From Gyrodactylus bullatarudis (Eukaryota; Platyhelminthes; Monogenea; Gyrodactylidea; Gyrodactylidae), in assembly GCA_012064415.1 (NCBI GenBank), contig SSNU01000051.1, positions 412,461 through 476,460 on the forward strand: DNA of 64,000 nt, in the 5' to 3' direction. Under the pieces are notes generated by a model. That model had not been told where the DNA came from and did not search any database. It saw only the letters and a program-made list of their open reading frames with translations. Made by a program: the position numbers and the translations under genes. Of the stretch, positions 380-47,985 are shown one piece after another (position 1 is the first letter of the stretch; each line of letters opens with the position of its first letter).

Positions 380-400
380 ATGCTTTTGGAATTGAAATAG
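380..400 (+). CDS. Candidate 21-nt micro-exon, symmetric phase 1
   Basis: A 21-nt segment lies between a pyrimidine-rich acceptor ending in CAG (377-379) and a GTGAGT donor (401-406). Read in phase 1 it encodes AFGIEI without a stop. Size, phase and signals match the other micro-exons on this strand. It is the leftmost exon candidate, so the gene probably starts outside the window. No transcript evidence; inferred from splice-site geometry only. Confidence 0.45.
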   Translation: MLLELK

Positions 401-1000
401 GTGAGTTGAACAACATATGCAAAAAAATATAATAATTTTTCCAAAATTTTAAGATAAGAAACTCAAAAAATGTGAGTCCTATATGAGATAAATATTCAAC
501 TTGAATAATTTTCAGTGCGATCAATAAAAATCGAAATAAGTAGCTAATTTACTGTTAATTAATCATAATCTTGCCAAATGAGTCAGTGGCTTTTAATCGA
601 GACTAGGAGGAAAACAGAGACAACTTGATATGTTAGTAATCCCGACATGTATGAACAAATAATCAACAGAATGAATAGTCATAGAGGGAGCGATAGGGTT
701 GGGAGAATGAATAATGATTTTTTTGTTTATTATTTTCAATCCCTCAACATTTGAGACTAATTTTTTTAGCCGTATATTTTTTATATAAATTTAAGCCTTA
801 ATGATAGCTGTTTTGATCATAAAAGAAAAAATTGGCTGAATAAGAGAACCTTTCTTATTTTCTATATGGTTAACCAACCGTGAAATTTCAATTAATAAGC
901 GTACTATTCCTAGCTATATATTTGTAAACTACTTCAAATTATCATAATGATATACATGGAAGCCGACCAAAAAATATACGAAAAACTTCCTTGCAAAGTG
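401..1000. other. AT-rich non-coding stretch
   Basis: Probable intron between the candidate exon at 380 and the foldback near 1000. I see no coding or repeat structure. Confidence 0.35.
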
Positions 1001-1290
1001 TGGTCACTGGTAATTAATATATCCATATGAATCTAACTTGATGGAGATTGTCTTCTTCAACTCACGATGGCAGATGTAGAAGCTTTTCGTTATTATTGGG
1101 ACTGGTCCTGGCTATGGTATACTGACGAGTCCCAATAAGGACGAAACTCGTCTACATCTGCCATCGTGGGTTGAATATTGTTCAACTCTCTTATGGAATT
1201 GACATTTACTTATCCGAATTCTAATATCTAAGTGTGGGAAGACAGTCAAATTAGATACATATGGATATTGTTGTTAACATTGGCCCCACT
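1000..1290 (+). ncRNA. Foldback carrying a hammerhead-ribozyme-like core
   Basis: The segment is an inverted repeat with an 18-nt perfect arm pair (1063-1080 with 1151-1168) and weaker outer pairing around 1017 and 1260. Inside is CTGACGAG at 1122-1129, then a CCC/GGAC stem-II arm and GAAAC at 1143-1147. These are hammerhead core boxes, and the 18-nt arms would form stem I. The minus-strand half looks like a decayed second copy head to head with the first. The stem III loop is only about 2 nt, so activity is doubtful. Part of the outer arm (about 996-1050) recurs at about 51985-52060 inside a PLE, which ties it to that element class. Confidence 0.5.
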
Positions 1291-1716
1291 TTGCTAGTGG
1301 GTAAAATGCATAAAAACACTTTAATTTCTAAATTTTTATTATTAGTGCAACTTCGTTCTTTCAGACTCATAAAATTCTCAGGGATTAAGTCAAAATTTAA
1401 GATATAGAGTCCTAACTTTTTCCATTTTTGAGAAGATTAATAGTAGCACTTTGGAGTAGTCGATGAGGTATGAGAAGTCTTCGTGCAAACATTCTCAAAT
1501 TGTTAGCGCGTGAGCTCCCATCAAAGAACAAATTCTTTGCGAATTTACGATGAGCATATTTCTTACAAACCAAAAGTTATGAAAATCATATTGGATGTCG
1601 CTTCTATGAATTAGTCAAGGCAACACCCAGGGAATTGAATCAATTTAAGGCACAATGCAATTGCAATGCAGCTATCATAAAAATGAAATTATTTTTCGAA
1701 AGTGATATTTTTTCAG

Positions 1717-1944
1717 ATTTCAGCTTTGATGGTGAACAACAGAGAGAGTTCGAAGCAGTTATAATTGAAAAAAATAAATTTTTGTTCCACGATGGAAATG
1801 GATATTTGTTTGGGCTGTCTTTAGCTGATATCGAAATCGAATATAATTCCATGATGATCACTATTAGTTCTAAAAAAGACAAACGTGCGGTGTTCATTCA
1901 AGGAGAACATCTCATAAATATGTATGAGCTTTTATGTGAAAAGA
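1717..1944 (+). CDS. Module exon A (228 nt) of a modular micro-exon gene
   Basis: The exon runs from a TTTTTTCAG acceptor (ends 1716) to a GTGAGT donor at 1945 and is exactly 228 nt, phase 1 at both ends. It encodes about 76 residues, starting FSFDGEQQREFEAVI and ending GEHLINMYELLCEK. The pattern is several short alternating hydrophobic/polar strands followed by one amphipathic C-terminal helix. No signal peptide, transmembrane segment or cysteine framework is present. Four other exons on this strand have the same 228-nt length and strand-then-helix pattern despite little identity. I do not recognise the family. A small beta-rich fold closed by a helix (PH-like, for example) is a guess. Confidence 0.75.
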
Positions 1945-2023
1945 GTGAGTAAAATATTCTACCGCATAAAGTCTCTATTTTTTGCTGATTCAGGTTAATG
2001 AATAATTGCGAATATTTCACCAG

Positions 2024-2035
2024 TAAAACCGGCTA
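2024..2035 (+). CDS. Candidate 12-nt micro-exon
   Basis: Twelve bases between TTTCACCAG (ends 2023) and GTAAGT (2036) read in phase 1 as KPA. It lies 79 nt after module exon A. Splice signals are good, but the segment is short enough to arise by chance. Confidence 0.4.
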
Positions 2036-2113
2036 GTAAGTTTTTTTTCAATATCCTAGCTTTCTTGACGTTCTATAATTTTTGATAATGAATCCAAAAT
2101 TCATAATTGTACC

Positions 2114-2373
2114 AGGGCTTTGCCTTTGGGCAGGCCATTTTGCACCCGACTGGCTTTTGCGTAAACTAGCCAATAAAATTGAGAGATAGAAAGGCCGTTC
2201 TGATTGTCCAATAGAAAATTTTCTATTATAAAATTAATTTAATTAACGAAAATATTCTAATAAATAAGAATTATATTTTATTTTTTAACTTTGTTTAAAT
2301 TCATTATTCTTGACTGGCCTTAGAGAAAATCGATAATCTCACAGTGGCCTTTTTCGACCAAAGGCAAAGCCCT
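2114..2373. mobile_element. 260-bp MITE-like element with 16-bp perfect TIRs
   Basis: Positions 2114-2129 (AGGGCTTTGCCTTTGG) are the exact reverse complement of 2358-2373. The inside is non-coding and carries further GGCC/TGGCTTT sub-repeats next to the ends. Short length, no ORF and perfect terminal inverted repeats fit a non-autonomous DNA transposon; the superfamily is not evident. It lies in the intron after exon A. Confidence 0.6.
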
Positions 2374-2639
2374 AAATTATACCTGATTTGCCTCGAACAA
2401 TTTAAAGTATCTGAAAACGATTGATATGCATATAAACTTAAAACTTTTAAACTTGTAATAACTTTGCATATTGGAGGTCAGAACATCAGTATAAGCTTCA
2501 GTATCACACTAGATACCTTTGGCATTATTTCACCTTGCAACTTCTCAAAATGATACCAGAATTTACTTCTTTTTATTATATTCATATTTTCGAATTGTGA
2601 TTTAAATTAATAATTATTAATAATATTAAAAGTTGCATA

Positions 2640-3315: not shown

Positions 3316-3327
3316 AGTCAGCGATGA
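3316..3327 (+). CDS. Weak 12-nt micro-exon candidate
   Basis: Between TTTTCTCTAG (ends 3315) and GTAAAT (3328), reading SAM in phase 1. A competing AG two bases on would break the frame. It is listed because it follows the rule of its neighbours. Confidence 0.25.
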   Translation, partial: SQR

Positions 3328-4066: not shown

Positions 4067-4294
4067 TTATCTATGAAAAATATGAGGATAGAATTCAATT
4101 TAATAAAATTGGATTCGCACATGGGTATTTACATATTCTGGACAACAATGATTACATTTTACTTCGAATACCTATCAAAAATTGTCATATAGAGTGTTGC
4201 GAGAAATGTTATAATTTTGTACTGAATGATGGAACTGTTTATGAAATAAAAGGAGAGGATTTAACAGAGTTTGGAAAAAAGTTAAAAGAACTAG
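4067..4294 (+). CDS. Module exon B (228 nt)
   Basis: Acceptor TTTTTTTATTTAG ends at 4066 and donor GTAATT starts at 4295. The 228-nt exon is phase 1 at both ends and encodes about 75 residues without a stop, from IYEKYEDRIQFNKIGF to YEIKGEDLTEFGKKLKEL. The alternating strand pattern and final helix match exons A, C, H and K, and its last segment aligns in spacing with exon A. Two adjacent cysteines (ECCEKC) occur mid-module. No ATG is needed: this is an internal exon. Confidence 0.75.
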
Positions 4295-4492: not shown

Positions 4493-4547
4493 GTAAGTTA
4501 CTCTGGAAAAATAGTTTAAATAATTAATGAAAGCTGATCAAATAAGC

Positions 4548-8693: not shown

Positions 8694-8984
8694 TCACATA
8701 GGCCACGGTAGTTGAAGATTAAACGAATAGTTCTTTTGAACACACAAATTAGGTTTATACCTGTTGATGAAGAATTTCTCCTTCACCCACACATCTGTGC
8801 TGTCATCCCCTGGGTTTTTGTATAAAATAGAAAAATTAGAAATTGAAGCAGCATGGTTTTCCTGTTTTAGATGTCTGGTCACCGCGGTATCTTTATTGAG
8901 ATGATCATGACATCTTGTTGACAATTTCCTAATAGTACGTCCTATGTACGAAGCCCCACAGTCACATTGAAACTTGTAAATCAA
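8694..8984 (-). pseudogene. PLE GIY-YIG endonuclease domain
   Basis: A 96-residue minus-strand frame begins IYKFQCDCGASYIGRTIRKL and continues through RCHDHLNKD and KPNLCVQKN. The IY...YIG pair, followed by the catalytic-type Arg and the Cys-x-Cys before YIG, identify the GIY-YIG nuclease of Penelope-like retroelements, which nicks target DNA for insertion. Only the C-terminal end of the polyprotein is present; no RT lies upstream. It is 5'-truncated and continues into its typical 3' repeat. Confidence 0.65.
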
Positions 8985-10069: not shown

Positions 10070-10197
10070 ATGAGTAAAAAGGGGTTGATGCCAGTTATAA
10101 GAATATAGCGCTGAATCTGGCGTGTAAAAGCTGATGAGTATACCACGAAATAAAAGCGCTATATTCTTATAACTGGCATCAACCCCTTTTTACTCAT
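10070..10197 (+). ncRNA. Hairpin with hammerhead-like core, 43-bp perfect arms
   Basis: 10070-10112 and 10155-10197 are exact reverse complements. The 42-nt region between and bordering them carries CTGATGAG (10131-10138) and GAAA (10147-10150), followed by an AU stem III over AAAGCGC. The long arm would extend stem I. The core matches that at 29840. It is a PLE terminal repeat reduced to its ribozyme and hairpin. Confidence 0.6.
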
Positions 10198-11064: not shown

Positions 11065-11292
11065 TCCAATTAATCGACGGAATTGAAACATTTTCGGTAC
11101 AGAGGATAAATTTGTTTGAAGATATGATTGTTTTGTTTGGATATGATTATGAATACAAACTCATGGAGATCAAATACCCGGCAATTAAGATAGATAATTC
11201 AAAACTCATTGTATCAAATCATCGAGAAGAAAAATTTACTTTCAGTGGAAAGAAGATCACCTTTCTATATGAAAAACTCAATCATGTTCTTG
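11065..11292 (+). CDS. Module exon C (228 nt)
   Basis: Acceptor CTTTTAACTTCCAG ends at 11064; donor GTGAGT begins 11293. The exon is 228 nt, phase 1-1 and stop-free. It encodes about 75 residues running from QLIDGIETFSVQRINLFED to FTFSGKKITFLYEKLNHVL. It has the same alternating strand pattern and closing helix as A, B, H and K, with negligible identity. It may begin a new gene after the terminal exon at 9595, or both may be alternative parts of one locus; the sequence does not decide. Confidence 0.75.
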
Positions 11293-13804: not shown

Positions 13805-14055
13805 TAATTGTGGGACAGAAAAAGCTATCACTCGAATATATTTTGCATAAAAGAGCAATGATAATTTTCAAATCACATTGCGATACGGAACATATTTTAA
13901 ACTTGGAAAGTATTAATTTGAAAAAGAAAGATAACACATTTGCAATTATGGATGGTAAAAATGAATTTCATCTTGATAACTTCGATGAACAAACAAGAAT
14001 TCAATTCTTTGAATTCATGGGTGAATTAGAATTTAGGATAATTTGTCCAAATTAA
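13805..14055 (+). CDS. Module exon D, possibly terminal
   Basis: Acceptor TTTTTTTTAG ends at 13804. The phase-1 frame runs about 82 codons from IVGQKKLSLEYILHKRAMII to a TAA at 14053-14055. A GTGAAT donor at 14021 would give a 216-nt symmetric phase-1 exon ending FDEQTRIQFFEFM, which matches where the closing helix of other modules ends. I therefore prefer an internal exon 13805-14020 but give the longer end. The frame is longer than surrounding non-coding DNA allows by chance. Confidence 0.65.
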
Positions 14056-15385: not shown

Positions 15386-15637
15386 CCAGCTCAGTGAAAA
15401 AATGTTCAATAATAATTGAGGAAAAATCTGAAACAACTTACAGTTTTATAAATGACTGGATAATTTTAGAGAATAAATTGAAGGTTACTCTAAATAATGG
15501 TCATGCCATCACAGAAGATCTTAGAGATATTGAAGATATTAATGAGAATACTAAAGGCTATGTAGATATTAAAATAAAGGATAAACTTTATTCAATAAAA
15601 TTCGACGATACTTTGATAAAGTTTATTGCCGAGCTAA
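15386..15637 (+). CDS. Module exon E (252 or 243 nt)
   Basis: Acceptors at 15385 (TATATAG) or 15394 (GCTCAG) both preserve phase 1; donor GTGAGT begins at 15638. The frame encodes about 81 to 84 residues, from KKCSIIIEEKSETTYSFIND to KLYSIKFDDTLIKFIAEL. It is slightly longer than the 228-nt modules, with the same final pattern of strand, FDD and helix. The two in-phase acceptors nine bases apart could give alternative isoforms. Confidence 0.7.
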
Positions 15638-17114: not shown

Positions 17115-17138
17115 ATAAAGGATATACACTTTACACAA
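17115..17138 (+). CDS. 24-nt micro-exon
   Basis: Between ATATTTTTTAG (ends 17114) and GTGAAT (17139), reading KGYTLYT in phase 1. The pyrimidine tract is strong. It heads a closely spaced set with the exons at 17216 and 17293. Confidence 0.5.
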
Positions 17139-17292: not shown

Positions 17293-17514
17293 TTACCTTG
17301 AGAATGGACGGAAATGAAATAAAATATGAAAATATTCTCTTGCATGAAGGAATAATCTGTTTCAAGAACAAGAGTACCAATGATATTTATATTATGTTGC
17401 ATTCACTGAATATCAAGGCAGAAGGAAAATGTTTTGATATTATTACCAACGATAAAAAAATTTCAATCAAGTGTGAAAATGAACTGTTTTTGTTAAATTT
17501 ACTAGATGCTTTAA
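17293..17514 (+). CDS. Module exon F (222 nt)
   Basis: Acceptor TTTTTATCAAG ends at 17292 and donor GTAGGT starts at 17515; 74 codons, phase 1-1. It encodes TLRMDGNEIKYENILLHEG through ISIKCENELFLLNLLDAL. The strand-rich body and closing helix match the other modules at two codons fewer. The ATG inside the exon (17304) is not taken as a start, because the upstream frame and acceptor are open. Confidence 0.7.
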
Positions 17515-17777: not shown

Positions 17778-18041
17778 AACCATTCACCCAATCAGATTTT
17801 CTGCTCTCCGTTGAAGGAAAATTCACTGGCGCTCAAGTCATAAAGAACATCTTTTTTGCAGATAAATATTTCAAAGTAACCACGGTGGAATATACGTTTG
17901 AGATAAAATACGAAAACCTTGAGGCATCTTACACAGATAATTCAAAACTAGAAATATCGTTCAAATCAAACTCCAATGACCTTAGGAAATTCTCAATAAA
18001 AATATTGGGACCAAACTGGAAATCTTCATATGAAAAATTAA
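17778..18041 (+). CDS. Module exon G (264 nt)
   Basis: Acceptor TTTCATTTCAACAG ends at 17777, donor GTAAAT starts at 18042; 88 codons, phase 1-1, no stop. It starts PFTQSDFLLSVEGKFTGAQV and ends ISFKSNSNDL, then a linker with GPNWKSSYEKL. It is the longest module, about 12 codons over the standard, extended before the closing helix. Codon use is AT-biased like its neighbours. Confidence 0.7.
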
Positions 18042-18452
18042 GTAAATCTAATATAATATATATAAAGGACTTTCAAAAATATAATAGGGAATTCAAAGAC
18101 TGAATAAACGAAAAAAATTTTTCAATAGAGATTCAAATTCAAAACTTTTATTATATATTTATAAGAATTCCAAAATTTTCTAGAAATTTATGAAATAAAT
18201 TATCGGGAATTTTAATATCAATATTTTCGATACTCGCATTCACTATCTTTTCTTTTACTTTCAAGATATTTTAAATGAGGCAGACCTAATATTAATCTAG
18301 ATATTTCAATTATTTAAATTCAATAAAATATTTCTAGTGAGAATAATCAACTCTAGTAAGCCAAGAAAATTAAGGTTCATATTTAAAATTCATTGACCAA
18401 CTCATAAAAGTTATCTTTAATCCACGAAATTTACATACATTTATTATTCTAG

Positions 18453-18717: not shown

Positions 18718-18945
18718 ATTACCTTTATTGCAATGATTCATATTATAAATTCAACAAATTGGGACTTGTCAAGAATAATTTAGTATTCCTAATGGATAAT
18801 GAAGTTAAATTTGATTTTTTTACTGGATATTTACATCTTGTTGTTTGTAAACACAAGTTCAGAATAAGTGATGAGACAACTAGAGAATGCTATGAGATAT
18901 CTGGAGATTTTATTCAAGATTTATTATCATTGATGAAAAGTCTGT
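18718..18945 (+). CDS. Module exon H (228 nt)
   Basis: Acceptor TTTAAATCTCAG ends at 18717, donor GTAAGT starts at 18946; exactly 228 nt, phase 1-1. It encodes YLYCNDSYYKFNKLGLVKNN to CYEISGDFIQDLLSLMKSL. The closing YEISGD plus helix is spaced like YEIKGEDLTEF in exon B, the clearest sequence-level link between modules. It sits at the 3' end of the compact cluster 17115-19126. Confidence 0.8.
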
Positions 18946-19460: not shown

Positions 19461-19545
19461 ACGTCCGCTTTTGGACTCATCAGTATCCAGATTGTGGCAT
19501 ACTGATGAGTCCAAAAGCGGACGAAACGCGCGTACAAGTCTACCA
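19461..19545 (+). ncRNA. Two-way hammerhead palindrome
   Basis: 19462-19486 is the reverse complement of 19499-19523, so a hammerhead core lies on each strand: plus CTGATGAG 19502-19509 with GAAAC 19523-19527; minus CTGATGAG 19483-19476. The plus copy has stem II TCC/GGA with loop AAAAGC, then GAAAC-GCGC-GTA, a minimal stem III with cleavage expected after the A. This is the best core of its type here. The flank 19373-19440 matches the hairpin family at 30111. Confidence 0.7.
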
Positions 19546-20284: not shown

Positions 20285-21716
20285 ATGATTTCCAAACTCA
20301 AATTCAAAATTCGACGAGACATATTTAATATAAGTAAAAACATACTGTTGAATGGACACCACACCTTCTTAAGTAAAATGTTTAATCTATTTGAAAAGTC
20401 ATTTGACAACAACTCAATTCCTAAAGAATTCCTAATCACAAAAGTCATACCACTTCCGAAAAAAGAATCCAATGAATTCAGACCAATTTCACTGCAATAT
20501 ACATTCATTAGAATCATTGACTCCTTCCTCTTTCTGCAGATAAGTAAAATAAACAATATTGCAACTATTGACCCTAATCAACATGGCTTTTGTAGAGGAA
20601 GGTCGTGCGAATCCAATATCTATCAATTCCTTAGCTATGTCTCATATTTGAAAAGCAAGAATCAAAAATTGTTGTTGTATATATTGATCTTAGCAAAGCA
20701 TTTGATAAAGTATACTTTGCCACAATTCTTGAAGCCTGCCACAAGCAAGGAGTCCAAAATTCCTTAAATATCTAGAGAACTATCTCACTAATAGACAACA
20801 ATTTGTGGAGTATAATACGCAACGGTCAGATTACCAAAAGATCTCATCTGGAGTTCCTCAAAGATCAAGAATTGGACCTTTACTTTTTAACATAGTCCTT
20901 GCTGAAATTAATTCCTCGACATACAAAATCTTCAAATATGCTGACGAATTTAAGATTTTCTTTCATTTCAACAATACCTATGATGGTAGTATTATCAACT
21001 CAGAACTATCCATCATAATTAACACACTGAAAACATTTGAATTAACGCCCAATATAGACAAGTCATTTTGCATCATACCAGATGATATAGATATTTTTGA
21101 CTTAAACATTTACATAAACGAAGACAAAATCCTAACCAAAGAGTTAGTCAAAGATCTTGGTGTTACTTATTCATGGAAATTTGACTTCACTGATCACTAC
21201 AATGATGTAATTAATAAATTCATTAGGAGACTCATTCATATTCACAAATGTATCAAAATTGACAGCATGAAGGTTCTCCTCTTCAAATTATATGCTCGAC
21301 CAATAATTGAATACTGCTCTGCAGTATGGAATCCAGAATGTGATTTTAAGCTACATTAAAAGACATTCTTAGATAAGGAAAATATTTGTATTTGGAAAAA
21401 GTTTTTGTATATCATCTATTGAGCTACATGGAATAATATTTTTGGTTTTAAACGAAAGAGAAATTTTTTTTTAAAAATAGTGTAAATTTATCTGCGTGGT
21501 CATATAAATTTGGTTACATATTCGACCTATATTCATTGGTCTAGAAAATACTCGAATTTTATTGGTCAACGAAAACGAGCAGAGAGACATATATCTAGAA
21601 ATCATTTCGGAGTAAAGTTATCTCGAACCATTATCTATCCAATTGACTGGAGACTGAATATTCCAACTATGCTATTTTTCAACTATGTGAAAAATTCATG
21701 GCAATTTTCAGTTTGA
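20285..21716 (+). pseudogene. Non-LTR (LINE) reverse transcriptase, broken
   Basis: From 20285 the frame reads FRPISLQYTF, then DPNQHGFCRGRSCESNIY, then after a frameshift near 20690 DLSKAFDKVYF, and from 20805 SSGVPQRSRIGPLLFNIVL and YADEFKIFF. These are the ordered motifs of LINE RTs (FRPIS, QxGFxxxxS, DxxKAFD, SGVPQGSxLGPLLF, YADD). The catalytic box is YADE not YADD, and QGS is QRS, so it is inactive. Endonuclease and 5' part are absent. The related copy at 44120 shares the DPNQHGFCRG and AFDK boxes. A frame at 21510-21716 may be the C-terminus. Confidence 0.75.
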
Positions 21717-25541: not shown

Positions 25542-25781
25542 GCGATATAGAATATAGGAAAGTCAAATATACACTTGACAATATTGTGTCCGATGGAAAG
25601 AAATTGTCCTTTATGTTTGGAGATAAAGAAATATGTAGCCTGGAAATGGATAACATTCACTTGATTTATTACTTCATGCGTATATATTTAACTGATGTTG
25701 AGAATTCAACCACAGAAAACACTGTAATTATATCTGGTGGAGACCAATGGAAAAATTTTTACTTTTCATTACCTAAAATAG
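25542..25781 (+). CDS. Module exon I (240 nt)
   Basis: Acceptor AAATTTTATTTAG ends at 25541, donor GTAAGA starts at 25782; 80 codons, phase 1-1. It encodes DIEYRKVKYTLDNIVSDGK to DQWKNFYFSLPKI. Strands resemble other modules up to CSLEMDNIHLIYYFMRIYL, but the end is NFYFSLPKI and not the usual long helix. The upstream ATG frame is ignored because its phase-1 reading hits a stop. Confidence 0.65.
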
Positions 25782-27404: not shown

Positions 27405-27638
27405 TTTATATTTACTATAATGGAAGATACAAAGAAGTAAACTTTATAAACATGAATGAACCTCGGACTCAAATTCAATTCATGTCAGGAAAAGATAATG
27501 TATTTAATTTCGATTTGAATGAGACTGAAATGCGATACTCTAAAGACGTTTTAATGTTGAAAAATAAAAACGAGGAAGTTATCTGCAGAATCTACAGCAC
27601 TATTCTCAAGGAAATGCGTGAATATTTACCTAACTCCT
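27405..27638 (+). CDS. Module exon J (234 nt)
   Basis: Acceptor GATTTTCTTGCAG ends at 27404, donor GTAAGC starts at 27639; 78 codons, phase 1-1. It encodes YIYYNGRYKEVNFINMNEPR to ICRIYSTILKEMREYLPNS. The strand pattern followed by ICRIYSTILKEMREYL as a helix fits the module plan. It lies between the piggyBac MITE and the 28-kb repeat. Confidence 0.7.
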
Positions 27639-28016
27639 GTAAGCTATATACATAAAATCCAAAAGGAAATTAACTCAATATTTAAAAATAAGTAAAAATT
27701 AAATTCGCGTGTGAGTAAAATTCCGTAAAATATCAGCAAATCGGTAGTAACGTGTTAGGAAATAATCGAAAATAGATAAATTAGTTAGATAGATTGATAA
27801 AATTTCTAGAAAAACAATATACAAGTAGGGATTATGAAATATGAAATTATAAATTAATAGAGAAATGAATCGTCAATCTGCGTAATTTTTTTCATTCATA
27901 GCCTTTAAAATTCCGATTTACCTTTTTTTATTGATTTCTAAAATGACAAACCAACACTTTTATTTAATTTTTTAAACTTAGATAAACATAGTTTCTCAAA
28001 TTAAATGTGTCCTTTT

Positions 28017-28948
28017 TGAAATGAAATGAAAAATTTATTGAACATCACATATGTTCTGCTTGAAAATTTTCATTTTCATATAAAAAAGTTGATAGAAATT
28101 AATCTTGTCACAAAAAATGTATAATAATTAAATTTTTATAACTCTTTGTTTTTATACAAGAATAATAATATAAATGCATCTTGTTAATATGTTTTTTTTC
28201 TTCTTTTACTTTCGTTCGTTGACAAAGAGTTGGTACATATATGATAACTAGTATCAAAGCATTTGTAATTTATGGTCAGGCATTATACCTTATGAAGATA
28301 ATTAGTATTTTGTAACAATCTGTTCATTACTTTCTCTTCATTTATATTGTTTCTCTTCCTGAAACAATCACTTTATATTAGTTAATCGTTCATTATGAAT
28401 TACATTTAATCTACATGTCTCTTTTTTTAATTTGTTGATAATAATAATAACTCAGTTTGTTTTTATTTTAGAAATATTTTCACAAGCTGATGGTGAAGAT
28501 TCCCACAGCAATAGATAGCCTTTTATCCTGTGTATTTGATTTTTTATTTGTAATTAATTATGGGCTGAAAAATATCATGAGGAGAGCAGTTTATTATTAT
28601 TATTTTTTTGTCTTTGCAATGGCTCTAGATACATGCTATTTCAAGCTACTTTCAACAAATTAGTTTGTGACTGGTAAATTTAATCTTTTTAATTCTAATT
28701 ATCAGTGAAGACTTTGATATTTATGAAGAGTCAGTTGAGAAGAATAAAAAGGAATGAATATGAAAAATGATTAGCAAAACAATAAATATCTTCACAAGAC
28801 ATATTTTGAGTATATGTTGTTTTACTAAATATTAGTATATATACTAGTATAATACTAGTATATATATATTTTTTCGTCTTTAAAATATACTTCAAGAAGA
28901 ATCTGGTATTGTATATAAATTTAATAATAATAACTTCTTTTCTTTTTT
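28017..28948 (-). repeat. 0.93-kb segment duplicated in inverse at 45303-46244
   Basis: The reverse complement of this segment matches 45303-46244 almost base for base over its length. In the 45-kb copy it begins exactly at the stop codon of a LINE frame and ends about 25 nt after AATAAA, so it could be the LINE 3' UTR with this a 5'-truncated insertion. It also contains the exon candidate 28472-28518, which would instead make it host DNA carried by a LINE. A CTTTTT repeat borders both sides. Confidence 0.8.
28472..28518 (+). CDS. Candidate terminal exon (47 nt) inside the duplicated segment
   Basis: After TTTTTATTTTAG (ends 28471) the phase-1 frame reads IFSQADGEDSHSNR and then TAG. It resembles the exon at 34993 (LFSEITNQDS), which argues it is real host exon sequence. 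The same exon lies inverted at 45787-45741. If the segment is a LINE 3' UTR, this is spurious. Confidence 0.4.
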
Positions 28949-29689: not shown

Positions 29690-29890
29690 GAACACTTAAT
29701 ATCAGAAACAAGTAATACAGAGTAATGTCTACTGATGCACACCCGCACTCACCTCAGAGGAGGTGAACAAGAAGAAGAGCCAATCAGATCCATTCTTTTT
29801 TAATGAAAATTTTTTGTATATAAATATGGCATGTAAAAGCTGATGAGTATGCCACGAAATAAAGCGCTATTCCTTAACAAACTTGACATC
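29690..29890 (+). ncRNA. PLE terminal repeat with hammerhead-like core
   Basis: CTGATGAG (29840-29847), a short GTAT..CCAC stem-II region, GAAA (29856-29859), then AU stem III over AAAGCGC and cleavage-site UAUU. It follows directly on the PLE tail, as expected for the 3' terminal repeat. The inverse copy is at 6960-7190. The core agrees with the consensus; the weak stem II makes self-cleavage uncertain. Confidence 0.6.
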
Positions 29891-30643: not shown

Positions 30644-30679
30644 CGGAAACGGAGCTAAAGAAGGAATTTTTGATTGATG
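30644..30679 (+). CDS. 36-nt micro-exon
   Basis: Between CATTACTTTGCAG (ends 30643) and GTAAGT (30680), reading ETELKKEFLID in phase 1. Acceptor and donor are near consensus. One of the most convincing micro-exons. Confidence 0.6.
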
Positions 30680-32121: not shown

Positions 32122-32148
32122 ATGTTATTACTAATCAGCTGTTCATTA
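32122..32148 (+). CDS. 27-nt micro-exon
   Basis: Between TTTTTTGTTTCAG (ends 32121) and GTAAGT (32149), reading VITNQLFI in phase 1. It starts 17 bp after the end of the direct repeat, so repeat insertion came close to, but did not break, the exon. Confidence 0.6.
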
Positions 32149-32242: not shown

Positions 32243-32260
32243 ATCAGGAATTGATCACGT
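32243..32260 (+). CDS. 18-nt micro-exon (QELIT)
   Basis: Between ATTACTTTTGCAG (ends 32242) and GTAAGT (32261), reading QELIT in phase 1. The intron from the preceding micro-exon is 94 nt. Both signals are near consensus. Confidence 0.6.
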
Positions 32261-33569: not shown

Positions 33570-33797
33570 TTGACCTGCAAATCACAAATGATTTTGCTTT
33601 GAAATTCAATAAATTTGGAAAGAGCACTGATAAATTTCATTTTCTCCTTGATGATACTGAAGTATACAGTTTTGATGATACCAATGTACTTCTAAGCGCT
33701 TCAGAAGAGACATTCATGTTCCAATTTGGTGAAGGATCTTTTGCTGTAATATTCTCATACTTTATCAAATCCTTCAAAGAAATGTTACTGGATATTG
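33570..33797 (+). CDS. Module exon K (228 nt)
   Basis: Acceptor TACTTATTTTTCAG ends at 33569, donor GTAAGT starts at 33798; exactly 228 nt, phase 1-1. It encodes DLQITNDFALKFNKFGKST to FSYFIKSFKEMLLDI. FNKFG parallels FNKIGF in exon B and FNKLGL in exon H at similar positions, a second weak but repeated link between modules. The closing helix is clear. Confidence 0.8.
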
Positions 33798-34839
33798 GTA
33801 AGTATTCTGTATTATATTTGTATAAATATCAAAAGTGTATCTAGATTGAAATTGGTTAAATAGTCAAAGAAGCCTTTTTTATGGTGGGACTACAAATAAC
33901 CATTTGAGTTAAATACATGAAAATATCTGCATTTTACTTTTTATTTCTTTTTGAAACAGCAGATCCATGATCAAAGTTTATTCTTGCACTTTCCCGGAAA
34001 AAAATCATTTATGCTATACAAATAATTTTCGAAGGGTAGAAAAATTATCCTTTCTGTTCTCATTCCCTTAAAAAATATCAAATTATTCGAAAAATTAATT
34101 TATCATACAAAGAGAAAATTATTTTATTTAAAATTGTAGAACTTTTTGAAAAATTTTAAGGAAAAAATTGAATAATTTGATAACACCCCACATCTTAGAA
34201 CTTTTTCTTTGATTAAACTAATTCTTGACATAATTTCTTTTGGTTTTAATATAAAAAAGCTCTATATAATATTTTTTGTCAGTGAAAAAGAAAAATGGAA
34301 CTGAATTGAGTATGTTGACCATTGATTTTGGTATTTAGATTGTTCTTGGTGGTTACGTTGTTGAAACTTGACTAATTTCAAATAAAAGAGATTAAAACCC
34401 CCATGACATGAGTTATAATCCTCAACTGAGTAATAATTCTTTTTTCTTTTACAATAAAATATGATTCTGAAGTAAATCTTCAGAAATACATTTCTCTTTC
34501 TTTTCTTTTTTTTATAGATAGGTCCATAGAAGCCAGAAGATGTTTTCATAGACAACTTTATATTCATGACTAAAACCTTTTCAAATAAACCTATTGGTAT
34601 AATCGAATAATGTATACTCAAAAATTAATATTTTTTTCAAAAAGCTGTGAAAACTGGTAATGTTCAAGGTTTAAATATAAATTTATGAAGTAAAGTAAAT
34701 TAGAGTATTCGTGCCCTTATGAATTAAATTTTAATCAAATTCTACTCACTAGTTAAATCTTTTTGTTAAAATCTCTGTGTCTAATTATTAGTTAGAGGAA
34801 CGAAATGTTGGAGAGGTATAAAAATAAAAAAGAAGATGC

Positions 34840-35225: not shown

Positions 35226-35258
35226 CTGGAAGACTTCAACTTACTCCAGTACTGAAAG
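35226..35258 (+). CDS. 33-nt micro-exon
   Basis: Between CATTATTTTTCAG (ends 35225) and GTAACT (35259), reading GRLQLTPVLK in phase 1. The Tc1 element begins 40 bp downstream, inside the following intron. Confidence 0.55.
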
Positions 35259-35298: not shown

Positions 35299-37507
35299 CA
35301 GTTGTATCGGAAAGTAAAGTCCTGCTCAAAAAAGTGCCTTCACAAAAGTTTTTATAACATTGCTATTTCATGAGATTTTGTTAAAAATTTTTTTGATTAT
35401 TGAAATTTATTTATTCCTTCGATAAATTATCCATTTAGAATTCATCCAAGACTTGTTAATGTTACGTTAATTAAATTTAAAAAATCTGTCTAAAATCAAC
35501 AAAATTGCAAATTACAATTACAAATTATTTAGTGGTGAAAATTTTTTCATATCAATTTTTTATCATTTTTAATTATATTAAGTTTATTAATTAAAAAAAA
35601 TTTTATATATATTTCAACTTTATTTTAGTATTTTTGCAATATTTCATATTTTAACACTCAAATATTTCAAATATCTTCTTTTTTTATCGTGAATTTCAAC
35701 CAATAGAATTCAAGGTCATTTCAAGGTTAAATATGAGACCATATGTCATAAAAATGTTAACTTAAAATGATATAACCGTTTGGTAATCAAGAATATTACT
35801 AAACTGTGAATGTGTTGGTGATTTAATATTAAGCCTAGTTATTAATGTCTCATTAATTATGAGTAAATTAGAGTTACTATTCACACCTAGTGATTGTTTT
35901 ATTAATGGACTTATTTAATAATTGTTGGGTCTGTTCAATAATTATTTTATTTACAAATATTTTCAATACAATATGGTTCATTAATAATCTATGATTTTTC
36001 CTCTACTCTCTATAATTTTCTGAAGTCTTCGTGGAATGGACTCAATGCATTTGTCCACAGCAGCATTTACTTCTGGAAAGTTGGCCAAACGCTGAACTTT
36101 TTCATTTATGTCGTTAGAGGAATCATCACCAGAAACCAAGTACCTAAAAATGTGATAATAAATTTTCAATAATTCTTTTGTATTCAAGCTTACCAATATC
36201 TCTTCATAATGCCAAATATATTCTCAATGACATTGATATCAGGACTTTTTGCTGGAAAATCGACAACTCTTATTCTCGATCGGCTTAAACATCCTCTGAC
36301 ATAAGCTGAGTCGTGAACTGGGGCATGATCCATGAGTACATATAAATGTTCCCTGCGATATCCTTCGTAATGTCGGAAATTTTGGGTCACGAGACTCAGG
36401 AAAGCTCTACCATTAATATTGCCAGATGCTGGAGTGAGAGTAATACCTTGCCCGTATTTGATGCTAGCAAAAAACATGACTTTCTTTGGGAATTTTTCTC
36501 TTCTTATAGGCTTCGTTTTGTCATAAGTCAAGTCGTCACAAGTTAAAACTCTTCCCCATCCAGAATACTTTTGGTTAGAGAATGTCACTTCATCAGCAAA
36601 GATAAGACTTTTCCAATACTCAAGTGGTTTGTTTACATTTTCCTGTGCAAAACTTAGGCGATCTTTCCTGTGCTTTTCTGTCAAATTTGGTACATTACGA
36701 GCATCTTTCTATTCGATACCAAACCTTGCCATCGTGTTGTGTAGAGTCCTGTTTAACGAATGTAAATATATTAACTTTTCAAGTTGTAAATTCCTTCTTA
36801 TTTATGAGAACTTACGAATAAGTGACGTTGGGATAGAAATTCTTTTGAATCTCTCTGATCGTCCTTGTATGATTCCTTTTCGCGATTGTTTTGAGTCTTA
36901 AGGCTTCATGTAATGTAAACTTTCTCGGTCTACCGGAAACAGGAGTACGTATCGTATGGTTGTCATTCTTGATACGACTAACAGTTTTTATAGATACTCC
37001 TGTGTGTTGAGCTATCTCTCTCAAAGTCAAATATGATTGGAGCAAACTTTGAATAACACGTTTTTCGTCTTCATTAATTCTTTTCATATTGGTTCAAAAG
37101 ATAATTGGGATTTTCACACATAATTAAAACAAATTACTATTCTATCCTTGATACTTGTTTGAAAATTGTTGGCATTTTTTGCTTTTGTGTAAAATTATTA
37201 CTACTTCATATTTCTTTTTAAAGCCGAATTTCACACTTAATTGGTGTTATTTTTAACTGGCAACTCTTATCAACTTAATTGTATATGTTTTTGTAAAGTT
37301 AATACGAAGAATGACTGAAGAATGAATGCGTGAATAAATAAGCATATTTTACAAGGCAATCTTTTATTCGAATCCTAAGATTCAGTTATAAATCTATGTA
37401 AAAATTATATATTTAGATGTTATTCATTCTAATTTGATGAAAATGGAACTCAAGAGTTTTATAATAATCGAGATATCATATAAGGACTTTACTTTCCGAT
37501 ACAACTG
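35299..37507 (-). mobile_element. Tc1/mariner transposon, 2209 bp, nearly complete
   Basis: Terminal inverted repeats of 25 bp are perfect (35299-35323 with 37483-37507, starting CAGTTGTATCGGAAAG). The element is flanked by TA on both sides, the target duplication of this superfamily. A single transposase gene on the minus strand fills its centre. Perfect ends suggest fairly recent insertion, in the intron right after the micro-exon at 35226. Confidence 0.9.
35981..37087 (-). pseudogene. Tc1-like DD34E transposase with two short introns
   Basis: Exon 1 starts MKRINEDEKRVIQSLL at 37087, has two helix-turn-helix segments (LREIAQHTGVSIKTVSRIK and a GRPRK hook), and ends at a GTAAGT donor near 36815. 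Exon 2 (about 36749-36190) has LIFADEVTF (first D), LMDHAPVH (second D), and SPDINVIENIFG, with 34 residues between the second D and E: DD34E. A second intron (about 36194-36136) has GTAAGC and TTTTTAG signals; exon 3 ends GKIIDY. One in-frame stop (GIE-stop-KDA, about 36705) interrupts exon 2, so the copy is probably dead unless read through. Confidence 0.85.
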
Positions 37508-38224: not shown

Positions 38225-39485
38225 TTATATTGTGCTATTGGTTTTTTTTACTGTCAAAGGCTCATCTTGAGAAATTTCCATAAGTTTCCTTGAAAGACAT
38301 TTCAAAAATTCTCTTCTAGAATATTTTTTCACATTCAAGCTATCTGGCCATTTCAGACTAGATAAGACATAAGCATTGTATGCTGCGATTTCCAGAATAT
38401 TCCAGAACACTGTTAAGGGCCTTCTACATGAATAATTCTCGATGAGTAAATCCAAAGTATCAACTCCTCCCTTTGTGCTGTTATAGTATTTTATCATCTC
38501 CGGTTTTACTTCTTCATCTTTAGCGTAAGTATGGAGCGTTGACAGAAGAAGAACAGGTTTGTTCTTCTTTTGACCAAATCTTAGAATTGTAACTCCATTG
38601 CTGTAGATGTATTCTTTTTTCCTTCTTCTATGGTGTTTACTTGAAAAGAAATGGGCAGAAAAGATTTAGTCTTTCGACATGTTCCGACAAGGGCAGTTTT
38701 ATTATTCTTCAAATACATAGCAAGATCATAAGTAGTGAAGAAATTATCACAGGTGAGCGTACTTCCTGAGTTGAGCATTTTATGCATTAATTGTCTTACT
38801 ACTCTGGATCCTTGTCCAACTTCTGGCTGACAATTTTCTTTACCAATGTAAATATCCGCATTCACTAAATAGGAGTTTTTGGCATCGCATGCAGCCCAAA
38901 TCTTTATCCCATATTTACCGGGCTTAGAAGGCATGTAAACTTTAAAAGGACACCTTCCTCTAAAAATAATGAGTTGTTCATCAATAGTAATTTGTTCGGA
39001 AGGAATGTAAGATTTTTGACAGTTTTCCAAGAATTTCTGGAACATCATTCTTACGGGAGCCAACTTATCTCGATCATCTCCAGTATTTCTATTTAGCTTA
39101 TCGAAACGTATAAATTGTTTGATAACACAATATCTGGAATATGAAATGACTCTGTGAATAGGGTATTATTTTCATCCCAAAGCTCTGACAGATCCATATT
39201 TCTTTGTTTACTGAATCCGAAGTAGAGTGAAATACCTATCCATTGCTGGTTTGGGAGTTCATGGGGGGTAAAGATGAATACTTGATAGCTCCACACAATT
39301 GTATTATAATAATTATGATCCAAATTATGGTCGAATCCATCATCTGTTGGTCCTTCTTCTTCTGGATCTGGTAAAATTTCATCTTCTTCTGATGAGTTGG
39401 AGAAATCATCAGCTGCTTCAAGATTTCTGAATAAATCCTCCTAAAGACCGAGACCAAGAGCACCGTGACTTTTCGCTGGGTCCAT
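38225..39485 (-). pseudogene. piggyBac transposase, broken
   Basis: The minus frame starts MDPAKSHGALGLGL near 39485, hits a stop, then shows an acidic N-terminus (SSEEDEILPDPEEEG), WSYQVFIFTP and, after a frameshift near 39110, the catalytic region. ITIDEQLIIFRGRCPFKVYM carries the first Asp, STLTCDNFFTTYDLA the second, and KGGVDTLD near 38455 the third. Another frameshift lies near 38580. The Cys-rich C-terminal domain is absent. The DDD residues are kept, but with at least one stop and two frameshifts it cannot encode a transposase. No TTAA-flanked ends were located. Confidence 0.8.
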
Positions 39486-42204: not shown

Positions 42205-42228
42205 TGACTGGCGATGCTACTTATAAAT
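42205..42228 (+). CDS. 24-nt micro-exon
   Basis: Between AATTTTTCTTCAAG (ends 42204) and GTGAGG (42229), reading TGDATYK in phase 1. It is the first of three closely spaced exons with 42311 and 42415. Confidence 0.5.
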
Positions 42229-42310
42229 GTGAGGAATTATTACGTTTTGGTGAAAATTGGTTATCTAAATAAATCAATCTTTATCCTGAGTTATGTTATT
42301 TTTTCAAGAT

Positions 42311-42414: not shown

Positions 42415-42638
42415 ATACAATTTGGGATGAAGATGTTAGTCAAGTGTTTCATGGCACTGCCAGGGATTCAGTTCAAACTTATTTCATGGACAAACATGGA
42501 TTTTCTAAGTTTGCCTTTCGGTCGGAAACTGAAGAAGATAAGAAGAACAATAAAATTGAGGTAAAAGATGATCACATTTTGTTGAGTATCGGTACGAAAA
42601 AATATAAAATTACCGGTGAGAGATTCAATGAACTATAG
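42415..42638 (+). CDS. Module exon L, terminal or 201-nt internal
   Basis: Acceptor AAATTACAAATTAG ends at 42414. The phase-1 frame runs 73 codons from TIWDEDVSQVFHGTARDSVQ to KKYKITGERFNEL and TAG at 42636-42638. KYKITGE then a helix start aligns with YEIKGED (B) and YEISGD (H), but the helix is cut by the stop. Alternatively a GTGAGA donor at 42616 makes a 201-nt symmetric exon. It lies about 170 bp before the composite PLE. Confidence 0.65.
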
Positions 42639-43329
42639 AACATAAGCGGTGTGAGTGATTAACTAAAAAGTTATTAGTAATAACCAAATCATCAGAAAAA
42701 TTTAAATAATTTTCGAATATTTATGTTAATTTTTTTATATCAATATAAATCAATTATTTAGAAAACCTTTTATTATCTATGAGAAAGGCGAAGCCTGTTA
42801 ACTTGGAGAAATAAGTACTTTATTTCAGGCATACTCCTCAGTCTTTACATACATATTAGAATTACAACAAGAAAATCACAATACCTATTGATTGGCCTTC
42901 CACAGATCATGTACAATATATTTAATTACAGGTACCCGGTTGACTCATACGTTACATGTATTTTGTGGGGAGTGTAGATAGACATTCTTCTCAGTTAAAG
43001 AATATACCAATTAGATACAGAAACTGTAATTAATACATAGAAAAGTGTTCAATTAATATACTGTACAATTATGATTGATTAATCGATCAAGAGTAATCGA
43101 TTATTAAATATGTGATGTTATACTTTACTTTCATTGTGATAGGAATGATTTGATTGAAGTTTGTATTAGGCCTCTATTTGCCGAAAGAGCTCTAGGTTTG
43201 ACTTCAGTATTGGTTCGATTTTAACATTGTTTTAAAGGCTATACTTCTTCTGTACTCATAAGATATGCTTTTCTTTTTGATTTAATAATGCTTTGGTAGT
43301 TTTCAATGCTGTATCGTTTTTTTTCTGTA

Positions 43330-44115: not shown

Positions 44116-44119
44116 AACT

Positions 44120-45304
44120 GCCGATAACTTTCTACGACATTATTCTTACATCTACTCGCCTAATAGTAATGAATTTAGACCAATAAAATTACAAAATACT
44201 CTTATGAAGATTATTGACTCAATTCTATTTATCAAGATTCTCAACATAATTAATTTAAATAAAATTGATCCAAATCAGCATGGTTTTTGTCGAGGAAAAT
44301 CATGCGAAACAAATATATTTGATTTTCTAAACTAGGTCTCACTTCTCGAGAAAGAAAAAAAGAAATCCATTGTCATCTACATTGATCTATCTAAAGCTTT
44401 CGACAAGATTTATATTCATAAAATCATTGAAAAATGTCATGAATATGGCATATGCTCATATCTTCTTAATATGTTAATACCTTACTAAACGTAGGCAATT
44501 TGTTTCTCATGAAAATAAAGATTCTACTCCCAAACTAATTAGTTCTGGAGTTCCACAAGGCTCTAGAGTTGGACCTCTACTGTTCAATATTGTATTCTCA
44601 AAAATCAATGTTGACGGAGCTAAGATTTTTAAATATGCTTATGATATGAAAATAGTTTTCAGTTTTGATGATTTTATGGATATAAATTTTATAAACTCAT
44701 CATTAAAATCCCTTACTAATGATCTGTTAACTCTGGGGCTTAGCATAAATGAAAGTAAAACATTCTACATGACTCCTTTCACAACAACTCCTATCAATAA
44801 TAATATATGTATTAATGATAAAATAATAAACCCCAAATTCACGGTTCGTGATTTAGGAGTTAAATACAATAATTTTCTTCATTTTACAGAACATTTTTTT
44901 AGAAGGTATTACAGAAGGTATTCTTATACAAAATGGTGGCCCAAACTGTTGTCGAGTTCTGCTCTGGATGTTGGAACCCAGAAAAAATTGAATGGTCCAA
45001 GAAGTTTCAGTGAGTCGCCAGAACTTTTCGAAACAAACTGTCTGCCCAGTACAGAAAACAACTTGGTCAACCCTCAGAGTCTATCAAAATTCGAAGAGAT
45101 ATAAAAAGTCTCATACTTATTAGAAAATCCCTGAGGCCCCAGAGAATCTCTAGACTTAGAGAACGCTACAGAATTGAAGGACATGTAAAAAATCTAGCTA
45201 TATTTAATCGATGTAAAAAACACTTTGATAAACTACCTAACTCTTTGAAGAGAAAAAACTTGGAAGAGTTCTCTCAAGAAATTAAAACCAGATTTATAAA
45301 CTAA
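44120..45304 (+). pseudogene. Non-LTR (LINE) reverse transcriptase, broken
   Basis: Plus-strand frames contain NEFRPIKLQNTL, DPNQHGFCRGKSCETN, IVIYIDLSKAFDKIY and SSGVPQGSRVGPLLFNIVF, then YAYDMKI in place of YADD, and the LINE C-terminal region from 44646 to a TAA at 45302-45304. It is the same family as 20285-21716. It is 5'-truncated, with frameshifts near 44340 and 44480. It lies within the PLE in opposite orientation. Confidence 0.75.
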
Positions 45305-46244
45305 AAAAAAGAAAAGAAGTTATTATTATTAAATTTATATACAATACCAGATTCTTCTTGAAGTATATTTTAAAGACGAAGATATATATATATACTAGTA
45401 TTATACTAGTATATATACTAATATTTAGTAAATCAACATCAAATTACTCAAAATATGTCTTGTGAAGATATTTATTGTTTTGCAAATCATTTTTCATATT
45501 CATTCCTTTTTATTCATCTCAACTGACTCTTCGTAAATATCAAAGTCTTCACTGATCATTAAAATTAAAAAGATAAAATTTACCAGTCACAAACTAATTT
45601 GTTGAAAGTAGCTTGAAATAGCATGTATCTAGAGCCATTGCAAAGACAAAAAAAATAATAATAATAAACTGCTCTCCTCATGATATTTTCAGCCCATAAT
45701 TAATTACAAATAAAAAAAATCAAATACACAGGATAAAAGGCTATCTATTGCTGTGGGAATCTTCACCATCAGCTTGTGAAAATATTTCTAAAATAAAAAC
45801 AAACTGAGTTATTATTATTATCAACAAATTAAAAAAAGAGACATGTAGATTAAATGTAATTCATAATGAACGATTAACTGATATAAAGTGATTGTTTCAG
45901 GAAGAGAAACAATATAAATGAAGAGAAAGTAATGAACAGATTGTTACAAAATACTAATTATCTTCATAAGGTATAATGCCTGACCGTAAATTACAAATGC
46001 TTTGATACTAGTTATCATATATGTACCAACTCTTTGTCAACGAACGAAAGTAAAAGAAGAAAAAAAAACATATTAACAAGATGCATTTATATTATTATTC
46101 TTGTATAAAAACAAAGAGCTATAAAAATTTAATTATTATACATTTTTTGTGACAAGATTAATTTCTATCAACTTTTTAATATGAAAATGAAAATTTTCAA
46201 GCAGAACATATGTGTTGTTCAATAAATTTTTCATTTCATTTCAA
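45303..46244 (+). repeat. 0.94-kb copy of the 28-kb segment, adjoining the LINE stop
   Basis: Reverse complement of 28017-28948 with few differences. It begins at the LINE stop codon, has AATAAA near 46221, and ends TTTCATTTCATTTCAA. It carries the inverted exon-like piece 45787-45741. Best read as LINE 3' UTR or as a 3'-transduced host segment. Confidence 0.75.
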
Positions 46245-46656
46245 TTTGTATACAAATACTTTTACCAAATGAGAAAGCACGTCACATATTTAATAATCGA
46301 TTACTCTTGATCGATTAATCAATCATAATTGTACAGTATATTAATTGAACACTTTTCTATGTATTAATTACAGTTTCTGTATCTAATTGGTATATTCTTT
46401 AACTGAGAAGAATGTCTATCTACACTCCCCACAAAATACATGTAACGTATGAGTCAACCGGGTACCTGTAATTAAATATATTGTACATGATCTGTGGAAG
46501 GCCAATCAATAGGTATTGTGATTTTCTTATTGTAATTCTAATATGTATGTAAAGACTGACGAGTATGCCTGAAATAAAGTACTCACTTCTCTTATTTTTC
46601 TCAAGTTTTCAAGAGGAAATTGAAAATCCCCTTAAATAACAAAATTTTATTTTCAG

Positions 46657-46688
46657 AAACTGTGAAGAAAGTTAATAAAATAATTTAA
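46657..46688 (+). CDS. Weak terminal-exon candidate
   Basis: After TTTATTTTCAG (ends 46656), phase 1 reads TVKKVNKII then TAA. Strong acceptor, little else. Confidence 0.25.
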
Positions 46689-46789
46689 TTTTGTTGAATT
46701 GTTTATCCACATTAAAACCCAAATTGAAAACCCTGAATTTGGAAAATTCTAATAAAACAAATATCATTGATTTTTGTTTTGTTCAATAG

Positions 46790-46798
46790 AATTTACAG
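46790..46798 (+). CDS. Weak 9-nt micro-exon candidate
   Basis: Between TTTTGTTCAATAG (ends 46789) and GTATAT (46799), reading FT in phase 1. The intron to the next candidate (46853) would be 54 nt, at the lower limit. Confidence 0.25.
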
Positions 46799-46852
46799 GT
46801 ATATAAGCGAAAGTTTTTTTTTATAAATTTACATTTATTTATGTTTCATCAG

Positions 46853-46947
46853 TTGTGAAATTCGAAGTCAATGTTTGGTACCATAATCATTTCCTTGGAA
46901 GACATAAGATCGCCTCAGAACTTCCTATATGGGAAATAATCGAGTAA
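46853..46947 (+). CDS. Candidate partial module exon
   Basis: After TTATGTTTCATCAG (ends 46852), phase 1 gives 30 codons, VKFEVNVWYHNHFLGRHKI to WEIIE, then TAA (46945-46947). It resembles the opening strands of a module that lost its remainder. Could be a decayed or alternative terminal exon. Confidence 0.35.
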
Positions 46948-47279
46948 ATGATCAATTTGTCAATGGGTTTCTAATGATCTCTATAAAGCCCCAGAATCCT
47001 AATGGTTTCGTACACAAATCCGAACCTTTTTCAATATAAAACATTTAGAATTCTTGAACTCTTACAATTATAAATAATCTTCAGTATCTCATTTTGCGAT
47101 TTCGCATCTGAAATTATTGATTTCTAATAATAATAAATATGGAAGCACTATTTATTAGTTCAGTTTTTATTTGGCCTGTGGAATAGAGTTTCAATAAAAG
47201 AATTTCTTGAAGAGTTTTAAATTTATAAATTCTTAAATGATTCTCCTCTATGAATTACTTTTGGTTACCTTAGCCTTAG

Positions 47280-47580
47280 TTACCACACCCAATATTGCTG
47301 CAAAAGCTGTCTTTGCAGAAGAACTGACATGCGAAGATGGATTTCTAAGCCCAGTGGACTTTAGCAAACCGCAGGTCAGCTAGCGGTCCGATACGTTCGG
47401 AAAGGTTCCCCGGGGACCGTCGGAGCTTGTGTTAGCAGCGACAGGAAAGCTATTGTAACTCCCATAAAATTTTTTAATACTAAATCGAACAACTTTGTTA
47501 GAACATATTTTGTAAAAGAAATTCCGAACTTTTAAATTCCCGTTTATAAAAATTGGGCTGTTTCTTTTTGGCTGCAAATA
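47280..47580 (-). other. Less AT-rich segment, possible exon or transposon scrap
   Basis: The minus frame 47577-47380 (from CCAAAAAGAAACAGCCC after a TTTGCAG) gives about 60 codons ending NTSSDGPRGTFPNVSDR. Local GC content is clearly above its surroundings. No family recognised on either strand. Confidence 0.3.
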
Positions 47581-47788
47581 TATACTGGTATATATAAAAT
47601 ATATTATGATTTCATATTCAAAATATGCTGCTTTTATGTCCTCTTACTCGATAGTCTAGAGAAAGGAAGCATTTTGTATAATACGAGCTCAAATAGGGTC
47701 TCAACATTGAACTAAATCGCAACAGAAAAGATTCATCCTGAATTTGTCTATAGAGCAAACTTGTTTCATTTATAATTATTATATTTAG

Positions 47789-47985
47789 TGTTGAATAGCC
47801 TTGAATTGTTAATCATGAGTTGGTTAGAAGAAAAAAAACTCAAGAATTCTTCATATAACAAGGTTCGTGTAATTTTTATTTTCTTCAAAAATTACGCACA
47901 AATCTCTAGTCTGATTGCTGATGGTTATTTCAAGTATCTTTTTTTGGGAATTATCGAAAACATGTTAATTTTAAATATTTTCTGA
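47789..47985 (+). CDS. Candidate terminal exon with hydrophobic C-terminus
   Basis: After an ATTATTATATTTAG acceptor (ends 47788), phase 1 encodes 64 residues, LNSLELLIMSWLEEKKLKNS to FKYLFLGIIENMLILNIF, then TGA. Like the exon at 9595 it joins a charged helical stretch to a hydrophobic end. The phase fits the upstream modules. No reliable internal donor. Confidence 0.45.

Follow-up and report, generated by a model that had tools for sequence, protein, structure and literature searches.

The locus described here lies in the genome of the gyrodactylid monogenean Gyrodactylus bullatarudis (77.3 Mb in 471 contigs; gyrodactylid assemblies in print measure 67 to 91 Mb, PMC12677651). The mitochondrial cox1 of this genome shows 89% identity to that of Gyrodactylus albolacustris and 84% to that of Macrogyrodactylus karibae, which places the organism among the gyrodactylid monogeneans, parasites of fish. 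The window, that is, the whole stretch of 64,000 nucleotides that was analysed, corresponds to positions 412461-476460 of the contig here numbered C119; positions given without this prefix are those of the window. Along the + strand, domain-sized exons, here called modules, are interspersed with much smaller ones, the micro-exons. There are 20 domain-sized exons overall, of which the 19 internal ones are, without exception, multiples of three in phase 1/1 (19/19), and seven measure 228 nt. We interpret the locus as a single large protein-coding gene, made of a string of about 20 one-exon modules, mostly a diverged PH-like domain, connected by phase-1 micro-exon linkers and probably originated by exon duplication. 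We would give this reading a probability of about 0.72.

Module exons

Twelve of the modules lie in the window. A preliminary description of this DNA had listed their starts, and in all twelve cases we find an AG acceptor, a frame open in phase 1 and a GT donor in phase 1. That description also proposed a module of 228 nt, a length that is exact for five exons (1717..1944, 4067..4294, 11065..11292, 18718..18945 and 33570..33797). Six others depart from it, those at 13805..14020 (216 nt), 15386..15637 (252 nt), 17293..17514 (222 nt), 17778..18041 (264 nt), 25542..25781 (240 nt) and 27405..27638 (234 nt), and the exon at 42415 differs as well. The latter carries an in-frame stop at 42636-42638, the point where the helix of the domain should end, and for this reason 42415..42638 is taken as the probable last exon, a module followed by a stop; an alternative exon of 201 nt would use a donor after 42615. 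No convincing exon was found 3' of 42638, where a single weak micro-exon candidate occurs (47789-47818, score 13.8).

Upstream, the array extends about 25 kb beyond the window, so that the limits 380-47985 initially assigned to it hold at neither end. A profile built from the 12 window modules only, run over 244 kb around the window, matched in its initial search (iteration 0) C119:400107 (E 2e-8), 408923 (1.8e-5) and 401947 (0.013); nothing on the opposite strand scored better than 0.049, or on the reversed sequence better than 0.6. These matches fall in + strand exons of exact phase 1/1 at C119:400087 (228 nt), 408909 (228 nt) and 401909 (225 nt), and a further exon of exact phase 1/1, at C119:393858 (231 nt, + strand), was matched after iteration. 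Four other domain-sized exons on the same strand complete the set. Those at C119:387039-387254 and C119:388817-389074 come from an exon scan blind to the domain and that at C119:387412-387675 from reading the sequence, while C119:388412-388648 was found partly by the domain-blind scan, with limits from sequence reading.

The kinship of the modules was assessed with leave-one-out profiles scored against 1000 shuffles: 11/20 modules exceed every shuffle and 15/20 exceed at least 992. In the window, none of the 1000 shuffles scored as high as the modules at 1717 (29.2 bits), 4067 (13.8 bits), 18718 (17.1 bits), 25542 (18.0 bits), 27405 (23.2 bits) and 33570 (18.2 bits), and few did so for those at 11065 (10.8 bits, 1/1000), 17778 (8.9 bits, 5/1000), 17293 (9.5 bits, 7/1000) and 42415 (8.2 bits, 8/1000). 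The module at 13805 gives a weak profile match (4.6 bits, 76/1000), with a higher score for its reversed sequence, and that at 15386 is unrecognised by the profile, its predicted model being PH-like. With a profile from the 12 window modules only, 7/12 beat their 60 shuffles. Identity between the first module and the other 15 aligned modules is 10-28%, which indicates that the modules are old or fast-evolving. Ten of the 20 modules, used as whole-genome queries, gave five non-self matches at E <= 10 (3.6e-4 to 0.28), all within the locus; copies outside it were not found at this threshold, in a short-word search that could miss distant ones. A transposon origin of the modules was rejected, since this search found no copies elsewhere in the genome. 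The frequency of T at codon position 2 is not raised.

Phase of the exons

Splice matrices trained on 16 module exons were used to search for candidates of 180-300 nt running from an acceptor through an open frame to a donor. In the sense strand of the 72 kb locus they returned 31 candidates, 21 of them in phase 1/1 and representing 19 distinct exons, a count that is partly circular, as 16 of these are the training exons. The antisense strand gave 3 candidates and four flank sets gave 8, 10, 6 and 3 (27 altogether), with phase 1/1 in none of the former and in 1, 1, 0 and 0 of the latter. Because of the circularity of the training set, the scan was repeated with generic splice rules blind to these exons. 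The sense strand then yielded 38 open candidates; 21 of these are in phase 1/1 and use 20 acceptors, 10 of them the starts of modules. By comparison, there were 16 antisense candidates, none in phase 1/1, and 53, 28, 25 and 28 candidates in the flanks (134), where phase 1/1 was found in 4, 2, 5 and 2 (13). The exons, their phase and the homology of most modules are shown by these computations.

Micro-exons

The same trained matrices were applied outside the modules to search for micro-exons, so that the test of their length is not circular. Among sense candidates with a summed score of at least 13, lengths leaving a remainder of 0, 1 or 2 on division by three are distributed 23:6:1, and 20/23 of the multiples of three are open in phase 1; the antisense distribution is 5:7:10, with one open in phase 1. 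At score 15 the sense strand gives 13:1:0, all 13 open, and the antisense strand 2:1:3, none open. Generic rules show a weaker trend (sense 66:37:33, 45 open in phase 1; antisense 54:41:50, 23 open), the flank distributions being 52:51:46, 37:41:44, 91:70:73 and 97:74:72.

A slightly wider list comprises 22 micro-exons in the array. Twelve of them are in the window, all on the + strand: 380..400 (21 nt, phase 1/1, open, splice score 19.1), 3316..3327 (12 nt, 14.5), 17115..17138 (24 nt, 14.9), 18338..18355 (18 nt, 13.7), 28472..28492 (21 nt, 13.9, with a weak donor of 3.6), 28706..28729 (24 nt, 13.4), 30644..30679 (36 nt, 13.1, with a weak acceptor of 4.1), 32122..32148 (27 nt, 15.2), 32243..32260 (18 nt, 15.0), 34283..34309 (27 nt, 16.1), 35226..35258 (33 nt, 15.8) and 42205..42249 (45 nt, 14.9; or 24 nt from the same acceptor, 13.1). 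About 15 had been proposed for the window; the number accepted is lower, and the phase-1 rule ascribed to them is borne out by their enrichment relative to antisense and flanks. The predicted order of the exons, MMMMuuuMuuuMuuMuuMuMuMMMMuMMuMMMuuuuuMuuuM (M, module; u, micro-exon), contains 42 exons, 22 of them micro-exons, with a longest micro-exon run of five, and alternates only loosely, in place of the strict alternation of modules and micro-exons previously suggested. The predicted introns range from 94 to 6946 nt, and the modules total 1539 residues, to which the linkers would be added.

Downstream, on both strands of C119:460000-566400, multiples of three are in modest excess among micro-exon-sized candidates (18/29 and 21/42 at score 13), which show no preference for phase 1; this region may hold other genes built of small symmetric exons.

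Predicted fold and searches for relatives

The module at 18718-18945 is predicted to adopt a PH-like fold, with a pLDDT of 90, and the model shows the features by which the PH superfold is recognised, roughly seven strands arranged in a barrel, with a C-terminal helix closing it. At the sequence level, none of the 16 modules scanned, of the 20, matches the Pfam PH models at E <= 5, and their best Pfam matches are unrelated (E 0.0097 or worse). A search of PDB sequences revealed no relative (best E 0.081). A collection of 5.8 billion proteins, nr and UniRef included, was searched twice: with a limit to short proteins, none of 223 candidates matched at E <= 1, and in the other search none of the 7992 candidates scored did so at E <= 10; both results are weak negatives, given the length limits, the exact-word prefilter and a collection in which Gyrodactylus cox1 is present and the presence of gyrodactylid nuclear proteomes is uncertain. 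Following the Pfam, PDB-sequence and protein searches, membership of a known family by sequence was rejected. In a library of viral structures there was no match at E <= 0.001.

The net charge is negative in 16/20 modules and sums to -43, which argues against simple phosphoinositide binding. N-glycosylation sequons are not enriched (12, compared with 14.5 expected by shuffling), and cysteines are few, with no fixed number per module.

Gene start and surrounding sequence

Upstream of the array lie two candidate start exons with a hydrophobic leader and a phase-1 donor, C119:381256-381337 (donor 8.5) and C119:384136-384253 (donor 5.5); in a third candidate, at C119:379935, there is a good donor in phase 0. 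With these limits the gene would span about 68-74 kb, from about 381-387 kb to 455.1 kb of C119, on the + strand.

Two stretches resembling each other and the start of a secreted protein are found at 47238-47377 and C119:363474-363687. By eye, each has a hydrophobic leader followed by V-F-A and a short cysteine-containing region, and after the second comes, at C119:364553, a large frame containing threonine-rich repeats. They seem to represent a family of flanking genes with no relation to the array, and the copy in the window may be a fragment.

The locus is AT-rich and contains many transposon-like fragments. Those at 8694-8984, 20285-21359, 22471-22932, 36190-37087, 38225-39063, 44646-45104 and 51432-51839, a good number of them in the introns of the array, resemble in their motifs frames of Penelope-like (GIY-YIG), LINE and Gypsy-type reverse transcriptase, Tc1/mariner and piggyBac elements. 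Apparent inverted copies, seen by eye, relate approximately 28000-28400 to 45900-46250, and 42760-43100 to 46290-46580, and are probably transposable elements. The introns also contain cores resembling hammerhead ribozymes, at 1120-1154, 10131-10150, 19502-19526 and 29840-29859, with similar motifs in the flanks. The Rfam hammerhead type I model gives 21.9 bits at 1120-1154, compared with a gathering score of 34, and the window as a whole contains no Rfam match at gathering score; a strict DNA pattern of the hammerhead core has no matches and a looser one has some. These cores probably derive from Penelope-like elements or retrozymes.

Discussion

The product of this gene would be a chain of modules of domain size, about 20 in number. 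Each module has an exon to itself, flanked on either side by introns in phase 1, and most would be copies, by now highly diverged, of a single compact PH-like domain. Runs of one to five phase-1 micro-exons of 6-45 nt would supply short linkers between many of the modules. As the exons have a common phase, any of them may be gained, lost or skipped with the frame kept. The array would most likely have grown by exon duplication followed by divergence, and exon skipping could provide variation.

Several observations weigh against this interpretation. Five of the 20 modules (C119:387039, 387412 and 388817, and 13805 and 15386 in the window) are unrecognised by the leave-one-out profiles at 1%, and domains of another kind may account for the three 5'-most ones. 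Regarding the fold, no Foldseek match has an E-value below 0.19, and some unrelated folds appear in the list; the alignment given to AlphaFold contained 12 sequences only, and the second model was derived from the same alignment. Micro-exons are individually uncertain, with a few expected to be false, and at C119:392463, one of those accepted upstream of the window, the opposite strand carries an overlapping Penelope-like frame. The start exon is also uncertain, and weak start-like stretches with phase-1 donors of 4.2-5.6 occur inside the array (C119:392991, 422797, 445767, 451721 and 454333). Finally, the flanks too show a milder excess of multiples of three (56/111 at score 13). In view of this bias, the fair comparison between locus and flanks is that of candidates both divisible by three and open in phase 1, which amount to 20/30 in the locus and 32/111 in the flanks (binomial p ~2e-5).

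That the pattern is an artefact, made of open frames between random splice-like sites or of decayed transposon pieces, might be suspected in an AT-rich locus so full of transposon-like fragments. It is nevertheless highly improbable, as held-out modules are recognised, the phase enrichment persists with untrained rules and no copies of the ten modules searched were found elsewhere in the genome; chance open frames were rejected for most modules by the antisense and flank controls and are possible for single micro-exons. The modules might instead be distributed over several neighbouring smaller genes with a few modules each, an arrangement to which the predicted introns of up to 6.9 kb, the unsettled start exon and the start-like stretches inside the array would be suited. 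We consider this rather unlikely, because all 19 internal modules have phase-1 donors, an in-frame stop at the end of the domain occurs only in the last one, and the strongest start candidate (donor 8.5) is 5' of the array.

Two further possibilities differ in the destination of the protein. The preliminary description inferred a fast-evolving effector or surface-antigen system with combinatorial splicing. Read in this way, the locus would be a secreted or surface micro-exon-gene system, with a product exported from the worm and diversified at the fish-skin interface by skipping micro-exons in combinations. The host is a parasitic flatworm, micro-exon genes have been described in schistosomes and tapeworms (PMC4350168, PMC7653826), and the start exon candidates at C119:381256 and 384136 are hydrophobic. 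On the other hand, sequons are at 12 where 14.5 are expected, cysteines are few and irregular in number, the PH superfold is mostly intracellular, and the start exons are only candidates for joining the array, that at C119:379935 having its good donor in phase 0; secretion is thus a reasonable possibility that falls somewhat short of an even chance. A giant intracellular scaffold of titin- or obscurin-like layout, serving muscle, the tegument cytoskeleton or membrane trafficking, would agree with the PH-like fold, with the lack of a disulphide or glycan signature and with the layout of titin. Against it speak the strong divergence between modules, a search in which none of the 7992 candidates scored was a relative at E <= 10, where a conserved cytoskeletal protein would be expected to find some, and the absence of a basic lipid-binding charge (sum -43, 16/20 modules negative). 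We regard it as a tentative alternative.

PH-superfold domains of known proteins bind lipids or peptides, and our best guess at the function is consequently a multivalent, lineage-specific binding scaffold, with tandem peptide- or lipid-binding PH-like surfaces tuned via the linkers. It could act at the host interface or inside cells with about even odds. A bolder version posits a gene class specific to monogeneans: a minimal PH-superfold domain, turned into a class 1-1 exon cassette and present in about 20 tandem copies, would be exported, and combinations of micro-exon linkers would equip individual worms or tissues with differing strings of binding domains at the host interface. This version appears unlikely to us.

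The sequence tests support, with the weaknesses named, the exon system and a symmetric-exon gene whose cassette would be a predicted PH-like domain. What the preliminary description outlined, a modular gene whose symmetric phase-1 exons encode a repeated domain and include micro-exons, thereby receives computational support. If this reading is true, it would show that in a parasitic flatworm exon cassettes neutral to the reading frame can carry a folded domain, and not only tiny peptides. Standard annotation would easily miss such a gene, since its small, widely spaced exons encode modules that lack a Pfam match.

Comparison with known systems

Platyhelminth micro-exon genes share with this locus a flatworm host and many small exons divisible by three, whose skipping keeps the frame. 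A working definition used for tapeworms asks for seven or more exons, of which at least half must be shorter than 70 nt with a length divisible by 3, and for four or more such exons in succession (PMC7653826); the present model has 42 exons, 22 micro-exons and a run of five, all of them predicted exons of which a few are expected to be false. In schistosomes, most of the coding region of these genes consists of very small symmetric exons and the product has a signal peptide (PMC4350168). The parallel with schistosomes drawn in the preliminary description is one of comparable systems, both in parasitic flatworms, and not of identical ones: micro-exons make up about 10% of the predicted coding length of the array (534/5213 nt), the rest being domain exons, and a signal peptide is here represented by candidate start exons only. 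The genome of Gyrodactylus salaris was reportedly the subject of Hahn et al. 2014. Citing that work, a later source places micro-exon gene organisation among the proposed gains linked to flatworm parasitism (PMC4398949). Micro-exon genes in monogeneans may thus already be in print, and what is new here is the arrangement of domain exons in an array.

In the case of the aphid bicycle and megacycle genes, the internal exons of bicycle genes are nearly all in phase 2, and megacycle is one huge gene that comprises about 2000 codons (PMC9168663). The likeness resides in the many small internal exons of one phase and in the existence of a single huge gene, whereas the phase (2 there, 1/1 in the 19 internal modules here) and the lineage are different, and no folded-domain exons are noted in the passages of that source consulted. 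As for proteins of the PH superfold (PH, PTB, FERM F3, Ran-binding, Dcp1 and the tandem PH domains of SSRP1/Pob3/Rtt106), they differ from the modules described here, which measure 71-87 aa and have no Pfam PH match. We know of no PH protein with about 20 domains in a row, one per exon, and a literature search covering titles and the beginnings of abstracts returned neither a comparable PH array nor such an exon array. A similar layout is that of titin, in which class 1-1 exons encode one domain each and small exons act as spacers; the array shares with it the symmetric exons, the single domain per exon and the small spacers, in a different fold and a different organism.

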